In this document: piece by piece, positions 54,120-59,861 of the stretch
How the letters are laid out: each line of letters starts with the position of its first letter
Numbering within the stretch: the stretch's first letter is position 1
Assembly: GCA_027013165.1 (NCBI GenBank)
Contig: JALUXV010000530.1
Span: forward strand, 1 to 64,000
Source: Alteromonadaceae bacterium
GTDB lineage: Bacteria > Pseudomonadota > Gammaproteobacteria > Enterobacterales > Alteromonadaceae
Reading direction: 5' to 3'
Length of the DNA stretch: 64,000 nucleotides
Program-made: the position numbers and the translations under genes
The notes under the pieces: model-generated
What the model was told of the DNA's origin: nothing
The model's database searches: none
The model's input: the letters and a program-made list of their open reading frames with translations, nothing else

Positions 54120-57100
54120 TTAATTTAAATCGTTAAACTTGTTGAGCTTTGCAGTAGCTGCGGTCATGCCGCCAGCTTGTTGTTGGCGCTTTTTCACACC
54201 AAAATCAGCTGCGCTCATTCTTAGTAATGTGGGTAACAGAACCAGTGTGAACAAAGTGCTAATTGTCATTCCTCCGACAATAACCGCGGCCAAACCGCGA
54301 TAAATCACACTGCCAGCACCTGGCAACAGTAGTAATGGCAACATGCCAAAAATAGAGGTTAACGTGCTCATGAATATGGGACGTAAACGAAGTTCAACAG
54401 CTTGCCTAACGGCGTCATCGCGGCTAAGACCGTCTTGTTGACCCAATCGGGTTTGGTGCACTAATAAAATTGCGTTATTTACGACTAACCCTAACAGAAT
54501 GATAAAACCTATCATGGTCAACAGATCCATAGGTTGGAACATAAAGGTATTCATGATTCGAATCGCAACAATGCCGCCCACCGTCGCTAGGGGAATAGAT
54601 AAAACAACCAAGGCACTGTCTTTAAGAGATTTAAATAATCCGGCCATTAAAAGCAGCAGCAAAAGCATGGCAAATAGGAAGTTGTCTGACATCGACGCAA
54701 TTGCACCTTTAAGACTATCTGCACTTCCACCGTAATTAATTGAACCATCGGGCGGCATCATTGCCATTATCGCCGGCTCGACCTCTGACTTAACTTTGGC
54801 CATGGCGTCTTCTAGGCTCATGCCTTCAGGAGGATTGAAGTTAAGCGTCAGTGTTCTGCGTCCATCAACCCGCTGAATACGGCTAGGTCCCACTGCTCGC
54901 TCAATATCAACTAATTCACCAAGTTGTACCACTTCTCCAGTGGGTGTAGTGATAGGCAAAGTGGCCAGTTCTTCTGGGCTATCCCACTGCTCTGAGCGAA
55001 AGATAATGTTCATTCGCTTCACACCGTCGAAGTATTCTCCAACGTACATACCATCACCCATAGAGCGAACAAGATTGGCCATGCGGCCACGATTTAAACC
55101 AACCTCAACCATGCGATTATCATTGGGATAAAACTGTAGCTCTGGTTCAGCTTGCTCTAACGGAGGGTTGGGTCTTGCGTTTGCTGTTGGAAAGACCTCG
55201 CGAATTTTATCTAATCCCGCTTGTGCCGCTACACTAAGTCCGTCTTGGTCTGTACCTTGAAGATGAATGGCAATGGAGCGTCCGTTACCAAAACCACCAA
55301 ATAGATTACCTTGTTGTGCGAATGCTCTAGTATCGGGTAAATCTTTTAGTATTTCGTCTCGTACAATCGCTTCAAGTTCTTTTACTTTTGATTGATCTTG
55401 TGCCCGAACTCCTAAGGTACCGCCATTTGGCCAGGTAAGTATGTAGTAATTCTTCAGCGCTGGCTGCTTTTCACCGTCCATATAGGGTTGTAAGCGTTCC
55501 ACCACAATAGGCAGTACCTCTTCGGCTACGAAGTTTTCACTCGCTCCCGCAGGCAACATTAAGAAAGCATCTACAGCGTCTCTTTTTACTGGTGGTAAGT
55601 AGTCCATTGTTGGCATAAGCAAAACGCTTCCACCAATGGGCACACCCATAAGTACGAGGACAAGTGCGATACGACGAGTGCCTGTTGAAGATAGTGCCAT
55701 TACTTTATTGGTAATAGAACGCCAAACGGGAACCAGTTTATCTTCTGGAATATCTTTTCCCATCCAGCGACTTGCCACAACTGGAAGTACGGTAACCGCA
55801 ACTACCATTGATATACTCACAGCAATAGCAATAGTTAACGCCAAATCTGCAAACAGCTGACCTTCAACATCACTCAAGAACATTACAGGAACAAAAATCG
55901 CTACTGTGGTTGCAGTAGATGCCACAAGCGCACCAAACACCTCTTTAGTGGCATGATAGGCGGCTTCCATACGGTTATTAATTTGTCGATTCTTGCGAAC
56001 AATATTTTCCAGTACCACGATAGCAGCGTCTAGAACCATACCCACCGCGAACGCCAGACCAGCCAACGAGATAATATTCAGCGATCGTCCCGTAATTTGA
56101 AGCACAACAAAGGTACTGAGCAAAGAAATAGGTATCGCTAAGGCCACAATTAACGTTGCTCGTAGCTGACGCATAAAGAGCCATAAAATTCCGATAGCTA
56201 GCGCCACACCAATAAACAAGTTGCTCGTAACTAAGTTTACCGCGCGATATATAAATACTGACGCATCAAAGGATTGCACCATGACCAACTGCTGGGGCGC
56301 TAACTCTGTAGCATTGATTTGTTCGACACGAGCCTTAACTGCTTCGAGCGTTGCCAACACATTGGCATCGTTCTGACGGTCAATTCGAATGGATATTGCA
56401 GGGTTGCCGTTTTGTACACTGGCATTGGCATTGCCAGCACGAGTGATTTGTATTTCAGCAATATCACTCAAAGTCACTGGACTACCATCGCGCCATTCTA
56501 GAATCATTTCGCCCATACGCTGCGGTTCGTATTTACCTTCAAAGCGCAAGGTATAGCGTCGGCGGCCTACATCGACAAACCCGCCAGAAACATCGTTTGC
56601 GGTACCAAGCATATTCGTGACCGATGTTAAATCGATGCCTAACTGTGCGGCTTTAAATGGGTCAAAGATGATTTGGAATTCTTCATCACCGCCCACTCCA
56701 CTTTGCATTTGCGCGCGAGCTACACCGGGGATCGACTCCAGCTGAGGCTTAATCACGTCAGCAAAATAAGTGGTGTAAGTATTAACTTCGTTAGGGTTAC
56801 CTGGTAAGCGCTGAAGAAAAAAGTACGTCAATGCAGGCATGTCATCACCACTACCCGACAACGTGATGTTAGGTGAAAGCGCATCTCTAGGCAGTGGAGG
56901 TATACGGTTCATGCGGCTTATCACTTCAATTAAGGTTTGCTGCATGTCTGTTTCTAGGCTGAACTCTAGATTGATCCACGCGTTGCCCTGATTAGCCCAC
57001 GCACTCATAGATTCCAAGCCAGGTAAGCCTTGAAGTACCTCTTCTTGAGGTTCAATGATTTCAGATTCAATCTCTTGGGGAGATGCCGCGCGCCAAGAGG

Positions 57101-57245
57101 TTTGAATATTGATGTTTGGCCGCTCTATATCTGTAAACAGTTGGATAGGTAAATTCCACAAACTGTATAAGCCCAGAAAAGTGAGTATGGCGATGAAAAT
57201 CCCCACACCAGATGCGTTTTTTATTGCTGCACGCGTAATGTCCAT
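54120..57245 (-). CDS. RND efflux transporter permease subunit
   Basis: 1041 aa, 12-TM pattern; SWRAASPQEIESEIIEPQEEVLQGLPGLESM; AFAVGMVLDAAIVVLENI; GFIILLGLVVNNAILLVHQ. Confidence 0.95.
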   Translation of the reverse strand: MDITRAAIKNASGVGIFIAILTFLGLYSLWNLPIQLFTDIERPNINIQTSWRAASPQEIESEIIEPQEEVLQGLPGLESMSAWANQGNAWINLEFSLETDMQQTLIEVISRMNRIPPLPRDALSPNITLSGSGDDMPALTYFFLQRLPGNPNEVNTYTTYFADVIKPQLESIPGVARAQMQSGVGGDEEFQIIFDPFKAAQLGIDLTSVTNMLGTANDVSGGFVDVGRRRYTLRFEGKYEPQRMGEMILEWRDGSPVTLSDIAEIQITRAGNANASVQNGNPAISIRIDRQNDANVLATLEAVKARVEQINATELAPQQLVMVQSFDASVFIYRAVNLVTSNLFIGVALAIGILWLFMRQLRATLIVALAIPISLLSTFVVLQITGRSLNIISLAGLAFAVGMVLDAAIVVLENIVRKNRQINNRMEAAYHATKEVFGALVASTATTVAIFVPVMFLSDVEGQLFADLALTIAIAVSISMVVAVTVLPVVASRWMGKDIPEDKLVPVWRSITNKVMALSSTGTRRIALVLVLMGVPIGGSVLLMPTMDYLPPVKRDAVDAFLMLPAGASENFVAEEVLPIVVERLQPYMDGEKQPALKNYYILTWPNGGTLGVRAQDQSKVKELEAIVRDEILKDLPDTRAFAQQGNLFGGFGNGRSIAIHLQGTDQDGLSVAAQAGLDKIREVFPTANARPNPPLEQAEPELQFYPNDNRMVEVGLNRGRMANLVRSMGDGMYVGEYFDGVKRMNIIFRSEQWDSPEELATLPITTPTGEVVQLGELVDIERAVGPSRIQRVDGRRTLTLNFNPPEGMSLEDAMAKVKSEVEPAIMAMMPPDGSINYGGSADSLKGAIASMSDNFLFAMLLLLLLMAGLFKSLKDSALVVLSIPLATVGGIVAIRIMNTFMFQPMDLLTMIGFIILLGLVVNNAILLVHQTRLGQQDGLSRDDAVRQAVELRLRPIFMSTLTSIFGMLPLLLLPGAGSVIYRGLAAVIVGGMTISTLFTLVLLPTLLRMSAADFGVKKRQQQAGGMTAATAKLNKFNDLN

Positions 57246-57634
57246 CTTCGCAAACCTGCTGTTTTTTGTTTCGGCTTACTATAGGTCGAGAAGATTACAC
57301 AGAAAGTTTAAAACTATAATTTGATGGATTACAGCGGTGGATGACATAGGATTTTAGATTCTGCCCAAAACCGCATTTTGCCGTAGATAATTGGTCGTGA
57401 AAAATCGACAACTTAACAAAGTTTTAATAAAGCTTGTAGAAGTGTTAAAGCAATGAGCCGCTCTTTAGCAGCAGCAATTAGTATCTGTTTACTGACATCA
57501 AACGAACTTGTTACCTTAAATGACTCCTATTAGGACTTTTAGAGATATTTTCTACGCGTAACGATCGAATGAAAGTGGTCGAGAGATAATATTCAATAAC
57601 TTATATCATGCATACCCAAAATGCAGCAGCAATT

Positions 57635-57670
57635 TGCACCAACATAAGGAATGAGCACCAAATTAGTGCC
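57635..57670. promoter_or_regulatory. Candidate NtrC binding sites (one good, one half-site)
   Basis: TGCACCA-ACA-TAAGGAA and AGCACCA-AAT-TAGTGCC compared with TGCACCA-N3-TGGTGCA. Confidence 0.45.
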
Positions 57671-57787
57671 AGCATTATTTTGATTTACCCAAGACTTACT
57701 GACTAATAATTTTCAAAGAAACAAATAAACAATTAAAAATCATAAACTTAAATTAATTCCATTGATTTTTTCCCATGTACCATAAAT

Positions 57788-57803
57788 GGGCATCAACTTT
57801 GCG
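57788..57803 (+). promoter_or_regulatory. Candidate sigma-54 promoter for the TorF-like porin gene
   Basis: GGGCATCAACTTTGCG: GG-N10-GC, close to TGGCACG-N4-TTGCW. Confidence 0.6.
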
Positions 57804-57877
57804 TTATCCATGTCAAAAAAAATACTACAGACAGAAAAACGATTTACAACAAGTTAAATTTTGACTGGAGAACACAC

Positions 57878-58594
57878 ATGAAACTAGCTACAAAAACACT
57901 ATTAGCTGCTGCTATCTCATCAGCGACTCTAATGACTGCACTACCTACTTACGCAGAAGTTACTGCCAATGCTGCTGTATCAAGCAACTACATCTGGCGT
58001 GGTCTTACTCAGACTGCTAACGACGCAGCAGTATCTGGTGGTATTGATTACGCGAGCGAGAGCGGTTTCTACGTAGGTACATGGGTATCAAACGTAAACT
58101 ACGGTGCTGACGACATTTACTCATATGAGCACGATGTTTATTTTGGTTTTTCTGGCGAAGCTGATGGTATCAGCTACGACGTAGGTTACCTTTACTACAA
58201 CTACGATGCTGAAGCTAACTTCGACTTCGCTGAAGTTTACGGTTCAATCGGCATGGGTGGTTTTAGCTTGACGCTTTCTCTTCTAGCTCACACACAAGCA
58301 GACGAAGCTGACGGTCAAGACTTTGGTTTCGCACAAGCGTCTTACACTTCAATCGACTACAGCACTGAAATCCTTAACGGCACAGAGCTTGGTTTCCACG
58401 TTGGTTACCATGAAGGTGACTTCGCTGAAGCATTCAACGGTGTTGAAGGTTATGTAAATTACGGTGTTAGTGTTGCTAAAGACGGTTTCAGCTTCGCAAT
58501 TACCGGTACTGATCTTGACGATGCTGGCCCAGATGCATACGACAACGACGAGCTTAAGTTTACTGTAGGTTACTCTGTAGACTTCTCTCTATAA
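57878..58594 (+). CDS. TorF family putative porin (Gcw_chp/TIGR02001-like)
   Basis: Signal peptide; EVTANAAVSSNYIWRGLTQTANDAAVSGGIDYASESGFYVGTWVSNVNYG. Confidence 0.88.
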   Translation: MKLATKTLLAAAISSATLMTALPTYAEVTANAAVSSNYIWRGLTQTANDAAVSGGIDYASESGFYVGTWVSNVNYGADDIYSYEHDVYFGFSGEADGISYDVGYLYYNYDAEANFDFAEVYGSIGMGGFSLTLSLLAHTQADEADGQDFGFAQASYTSIDYSTEILNGTELGFHVGYHEGDFAEAFNGVEGYVNYGVSVAKDGFSFAITGTDLDDAGPDAYDNDELKFTVGYSVDFSL

Positions 58595-58741: not shown

Positions 58742-59194
58742 TTACGCTTCAGCAATGATGATCACTTTGATTGAAGTGATAACGTCAGAGTGAACTTGTA
58801 GATCGATGTCGTACTCACCAGTTTCACGAAGTGTACCAGTAGGAAGCTTAACTTCAGCTTTAGATACTTCAACGCCAGCAGCTGTGATAGCTTCTGCGAT
58901 GTCACGAGTACCAACAGAACCGAAAAGTTTACCTTCGTCACCCGCTGGAGCAGCGATAGTCACTTCAGCAAGCTCAGCAATTTTAGCAGCACGTGCTTCA
59001 GCAGCGCCTAGTTGCTCAGCGATTTTCGCTTCAAGTTCTGCACGACGTGCTTCGAACTTTTCTACGTTGTCTTTAGTTGCAGGAACTGCTTTACCCTGAG
59101 GGAAAAGGAAGTTACGTGCGAAACCAGCTTTAACTGTTACTTGGTCACCCAAGCCGCCAAGGTTGGCGATTTTATCTAGTAGGATGATATTCAT
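58742..59194 (-). CDS. rplI: 50S ribosomal protein L9
   Basis: [40 protein letters not shown]. Confidence 0.98.
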
Positions 59195-59459: not shown

Positions 59460-59861
59460 TTAAGCGTTGTCTTCAGTGGTTTCAGTTTTCTTTTCTGCGC
59501 GCTCTTGGCGAGGAGCAGAATCGTCACGACGCTCACGACGAGGCTCTTCTTTCATCATAGGAGAAGGCTCTGTTACAGCGTTTTTAGTGCGCATTACCAT
59601 GTTACGTAGGATAACGTCGTTAAAACGGAACGCGTTTTCCAACTCGTCAACAGACTCAGCAGTAGCTTCAGCGTTGATAAGTACGTAGTGGGCTTTGTGC
59701 AGCTTTTCGATTGGGTATGCCAATTGACGACGGCCCCAATCTTCTAAACGATGAATCTGACCACCGTCTTGCTTAAGAATTGTGGTATAACGCTCGATCA
59801 TACCAGGTACTTGTTCACTCTGATCAGGGTGAACCATAAATACGATTTCGTAATGACGCAT
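59460..59861 (-). CDS. rpsF: 30S ribosomal protein S6
   Basis: [63 protein letters not shown]. Confidence 0.98.

Follow-up and report, generated by a model that had tools for sequence, protein, structure and literature searches.

The porin gene and its surroundings

The window, a 64,000-nucleotide stretch of contig from a marine Alteromonadaceae bacterium, of Alteromonas type by its nearest relatives, carries a porin gene preceded by a set of putative regulatory sites (Table 1). The preliminary description of this DNA had named the product a TorF-family porin, and its score of 143.6 bits against the TIGR02001 profile (curated cut-off 47.15), with 84.2 bits against PF09694, places it in that family, of which it is the only copy encoded in the 4.79-Mb genome. 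The protein begins with a signal peptide, the AlphaFold2 model of it (mean pLDDT 81) shows a beta-barrel of 12 strands, and it is predicted to act as an outer-membrane channel. No solved structure has a sequence match to it; nearest to the model in size and fold are the 12-stranded porins KdgM and NanC (TM-scores by target of 0.55-0.68), at about 8-11% identity, from which a substrate is not transferable, and a substrate assignment by fold comparison was abandoned when the structure matches yielded no reading of it. The mature protein is strongly acidic, with 35 D/E versus 3 K/R, as are its relatives, and this may give the family a preference for cations.

Table 1. Features of the porin locus, in window coordinates
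Feature	Position	Strand	Sequence	Remarks
NtrC box 1 (distal)	57635..57651		TGCACCAACATAAGGAA	left half perfect, right half degenerate here; 7.5 bits
NtrC box 2 (proximal)	57654..57670		AGCACCAAATTAGTGCC	GCAC-N7-GTGC dyad exact; 134 bp from its start to the -24/-12 element
IHF-like site	57738..57750	+	AATCATAAACTTA	WATCAANNNNTTR with 1 mismatch; 50 bp from its start to the -24/-12 element
Sigma-54 -24/-12 element	57788..57803	+	GGGCATCAACTTTGCG	sequence, invariant cores (n=23), present in 59/59 orthologues
Ribosome-binding site	57867..57870	+	GGAG	7 nt 5' of the ATG; kept in the orthologue alignment
TIGR02001/Gcw_chp ('TorF family putative porin'), 238 aa	57878..58594	+		profile scores, AlphaFold2 model

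The porin gene diverges from an RND efflux operon (54120-57245) across a gap of 632 bp (57246-57877), in agreement with the ~630 bp first reported, and the gap holds no Rfam match to a regulatory RNA. Because both genes diverge from this one gap, the control region might serve mainly the RND operon, or both genes. However, the sigma-54 element is oriented toward the porin, and among 59 orthologous loci only that of the nearest relative (L050) shares the RND neighbor, whereas all of them keep the porin element. Hence the RND gene is incidental, the control region travels with the porin, and synteny led us to reject any regulatory role shared with the efflux gene, so that we consider control directed mainly at the efflux operon, or at both genes, highly improbable. 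At its other end the porin gene lies tail to tail with a ribosomal protein operon including rplI (58742-59194, 59460-59861), an odd neighbor that is likewise shared only with L050.

Candidate promoter elements in the intergenic gap

The -24/-12 element has GG at 57789-57790 and GC at 57801-57802, which is the exact GG-N10-GC spacing of the sigma-54 consensus, and the C of the GC lies 75 nt from the ATG; the expected transcription start is at about 57814, with a 5' leader of about 64 nt. In its coordinates, spacing and distance to the start codon the sigma-54 match originally described stands, but the fit to the extended consensus is imperfect, with three mismatches. The -24 half reads GGGCAT instead of TGGCAC, and a G follows the GC in place of A or T, which makes the site submaximal. 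A scan of the window with TGGCACNNNNNTTGCW at up to two mismatches returned 40 sites against 39.2 expected, the porin site not being among them, and the NtrC consensus at up to three mismatches was found 3 times against 3.5 expected. With the single motifs at chance level in the window, the case could not be settled from one sequence. Each of them might be an idle resemblance, with the porin driven by an unrecognized sigma-70 or other promoter, but a consensus scan for sigma-70-type promoters between 57200 and 57900 found none (2.6 expected).

Upstream of the sigma-54 element are two NtrC boxes of the TGCACCANNNTGGTGCA type, as sought in a member of the NtrC regulon. To avoid circularity, the 17-bp box model was trained only on the glnK-upstream boxes of 28 Alteromonadaceae genomes, without porin sequences. 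This model ranks the proximal box first in the 64 kb, at 17.8 bits versus 12.5 for the runner-up, so the string that had been noted there as resembling an NtrC box is in place and its identification is borne out by rank and, as described below, by conserved position. The motif TGCACCA at 57635-57641, first reported as a perfect half-site, is indeed present and perfect as a half, but it forms the left half of a second, distal box whose right half has decayed. A minus-strand 'terminator' flagged by the scan at 57670-57654 was discarded, being the NtrC palindrome itself.

Between boxes and promoter lies a site absent from the preliminary description. Most orthologues of the Alteromonas type have a match to WATCAANNNNTTR that starts 50 bp before the -24/-12 element and shares its strand, and the match is perfect in 9 of 23 against 0.7 expected from shuffles; in other clades similar IHF-like sites are often found 20 or 32 bp before the element. 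The textbook layout of such promoters has a DNA bend between enhancer and promoter, and the position of this site, a probable target of IHF, fits that layout.

Conservation, geometry and genome-wide occurrence

Orthologues were taken from the GTDB genome collection, and in all 59 a sigma-54-like GG-N10-GC lies upstream of the start codon, in most cases between -80 and -170. When 23 upstream regions of the Alteromonas/Paraglaciecola type are aligned, the longest invariant blocks are GGCA and TTGC, which are the -24 and -12 cores, and the GGAG of the ribosome-binding site, with some stretches of the boxes almost as well kept. In nearly all of these 23 close orthologues the two boxes are 19 bp apart, the distal one starting 153 bp and the proximal one 134 bp ahead of the -24/-12 element; the distances are off by one or two bases in a few and shifted in L015. 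Box 1 is a better match in most orthologues than in the window genome. Across 60 upstream regions the GCAC-N7-GTGC dyad is exact in 13 and has at most one mismatch in 43, compared with 0-1 exact and 3-27 one-mismatch cases for other spacers from N3 to N12, and many Alteromonas orthologues carry weakened boxes that lack an exact dyad. Conservation in orthologues was a point on which the preliminary description had staked its proposal, and the -24/-12 cores and both boxes are kept in position.

For the sigma-54 element we used a general matrix, written from the consensus, together with direct column conservation. These replaced a matrix trained on Alteromonadaceae glnK promoters. The porin site ranked low under that matrix (728th of 127,968), since its training promoters have in common a TTGT(T/A) form of the -12 element peculiar to their clade and are not independent of one another, and the matrix was dropped. 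This unusual element, in place of TTGC, was seen in the Alteromonadaceae glnK promoters of loci L232-L261.

A combined pattern, consisting of the box dyad, 100-130 bp and GGC-N8-TGC, has a single match in the whole 4.79-Mb genome, at the porin, and its reversed control pattern none; a version with nearer spacing matches the glnK-amtB promoter and one other place. A sigma-54-like site with a box was present at 112 of 181 porins and at 24 of 782 other genes of the same loci (duplicates removed; Fisher p about 5e-73, uncorrected for relatedness). What exceeds chance is the combination of motifs and its conservation, not the single motifs. Given a sigma-54 element in every orthologue, the fixed geometry, and a pattern that is unique in the genome and enriched over control genes, we regard a chance resemblance as very unlikely indeed. 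The control region of NtrC/sigma-54 type first proposed for the porin is supported by the conservation of its sites, their fixed geometry and their genome-wide uniqueness.

The genome encodes NtrC (747 bits, above the curated cut-off), RpoN (510 bits) and two PII proteins, and its own glnK-amtB operon (L062), a known NtrC target, bears boxes of the same type together with its own sigma-54 element. As in the enteric type of glnK-amtB promoter, GCAC-N7-GTGC boxes thus stand upstream of a -24/-12 element at both genes, although the geometry differs: in Alteromonadaceae glnK promoters the boxes are typically found at about 79 and 108 bp from the element and about 29 bp apart, whereas the porin promoter has the wider and more closely paired arrangement given above, with the IHF-like site between boxes and element. 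In E. coli, the sigma-54 promoter glnAp2 has tandem NtrC sites more than 100 bp upstream. The porin promoter shares these tandem, far-upstream boxes with glnAp2 but not their spacing, and it stands before a porin gene where glnAp2 drives glutamine synthetase.

Relatives, operon linkage and a probable nitrogen response

In a set of 40 loci from the family, most relatives keep both elements down to about 33% identity, including those in other genera at 33-50% identity, whereas the distant paralogues L101, L103, L106 and L117-L121 lack both; in loci sampled outside Gammaproteobacteria the NtrC/sigma-54 pair is mostly absent. A class-wide survey found that 48 of 175 porins directly precede glnK, most of these with both elements. 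In such loci the three genes share one orientation, glnK at a distance of about 700 bp from the porin start and amt at about 1100 bp, and the operon-type porins have consensus-like sigma-54 elements preceded, typically at about 110 bp, by GCAC-N7-GTGC boxes. On a tree of the 175 porins (a quick FastTree with weak deep branches) labels cluster strongly and solo and operon forms are interleaved, from which it seems that the porin gene entered or quit the operon on several occasions and kept its NtrC/sigma-54 control throughout. Judged by this comparison, the window porin stands detached, as a single gene, in a family whose other members head glnK-amtB in many other Gammaproteobacteria behind the same type of promoter.

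These linkages also bear on the identity of the activator. A true sigma-54 promoter could respond to another enhancer-binding protein with a site resembling an NtrC box: the genome has a dozen or more AAA+ regulators of the NtrC type, the distal box is degenerate, and the boxes are weak in some orthologues. However, the box model drawn from glnK promoters fits best at the porin box, the N7 spacer is specific, and the porin family is found in operons with glnK-amtB, so that we think a different activator improbable.

Taken together, the sites, their geometry and conservation, the operon linkage and the presence of ntrC and rpoN make it very probable that the porin gene has a sigma-54 promoter of the classical kind activated by NtrC, operating under nitrogen shortage. 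From established knowledge of NtrC we infer the following course. When nitrogen is short, phosphorylated NtrC would bind the tandem boxes at 57635-57651 and 57654-57670; IHF would probably bend the AT-rich DNA at about 57738-57750 and so assist looping; the NtrC ATPase would then open the sigma-54 holoenzyme at 57788-57803; and transcription from near 57814 would lead to production of the porin. Control by nitrogen limitation is what the boxes at the genome's own glnK-amtB and the porin-glnK-amtB operons of relatives point to.

Activation by NtrC of glnK together with the transporter gene is established, Caulobacter being one case (PMC10274813), and in A. macleodii glnK, amtB and glnA are raised in minimal medium, with an 11-14 fold rise of glnK/amtB in RNA-seq of minimal against rich medium (PMC4223743). 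In a search limited to open-access text we found no description of a link between TIGR02001 and nitrogen control. The promoter analyzed here would place the porin as an addition to the classical NtrC regulon, the mechanism itself not being new. Because the family is linked in operons, and probably co-regulated, with AmtB and GlnK, the porin would most likely be an outer-membrane channel induced for nitrogen scavenging. A widespread porin family thereby gains a physiological context that can be tested, that of scavenging nitrogen together with GlnK-AmtB, and the wider porin-glnK-amtB pattern merits experiment.

More tentatively, the NtrC-controlled branch of TIGR02001 could be the missing outer-membrane step of GlnK-AmtB uptake across Gammaproteobacteria, admitting ammonium or small cationic nitrogen compounds, with NtrC control kept even where the porin stands outside the operon. 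The acidic character of the porin would suit a preference for cations. Net charge was rejected as a marker of the NtrC-controlled branch because the entire family is acidic: operon and site-less members differ only marginally, with p about 0.05, or 0.03 in the class-only set, so that charge tells little of substrate. The porin-glnK-amtB pattern suggests that passage through the outer membrane, which is commonly regarded as unrestricted for ammonium, may be under regulation in bacteria of nitrogen-poor seawater.

The label 'TorF' holds as a family name for TIGR02001, but the name is no evidence of a link to TMAO respiration. It is shared with Shewanella oneidensis TorF (SO4694), annotated as 'TMAO reductase system outer membrane porin' (PMC5955497); there the annotation is to TMAO reduction, whereas the evident linkage of the window porin is to nitrogen control, and for the NtrC-controlled branch the name is misleading.

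Several other arrangements were seen among the relatives. Porins heading a porin-glnK-amtB operon occur in many gammaproteobacterial families (L205, L187, L157, L192, L206 and others), some of these operons having two exact NtrC boxes. A genome of the same order (G459) carries four TIGR02001 paralogues (L294-L297), with a sigma-54 element and an exact box only in L297. Outside the class, L307, L311 and L317 show an alternative arrangement of porin, glnK and amt, in which glnK and amt share the strand of the porin and precede it by about 1.4-1.9 kb, with no convincing NtrC box. In two Halieaceae loci (L043, L048) glnK-amt is on the strand opposite to the porin, about 3 kb upstream of it, and this may represent a state between the operon and the detached gene. 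In L193 and L196 the porin and glnK-amtB are divergent, with glnK about 430-500 bp away on the other side, so that one NtrC enhancer may serve both.
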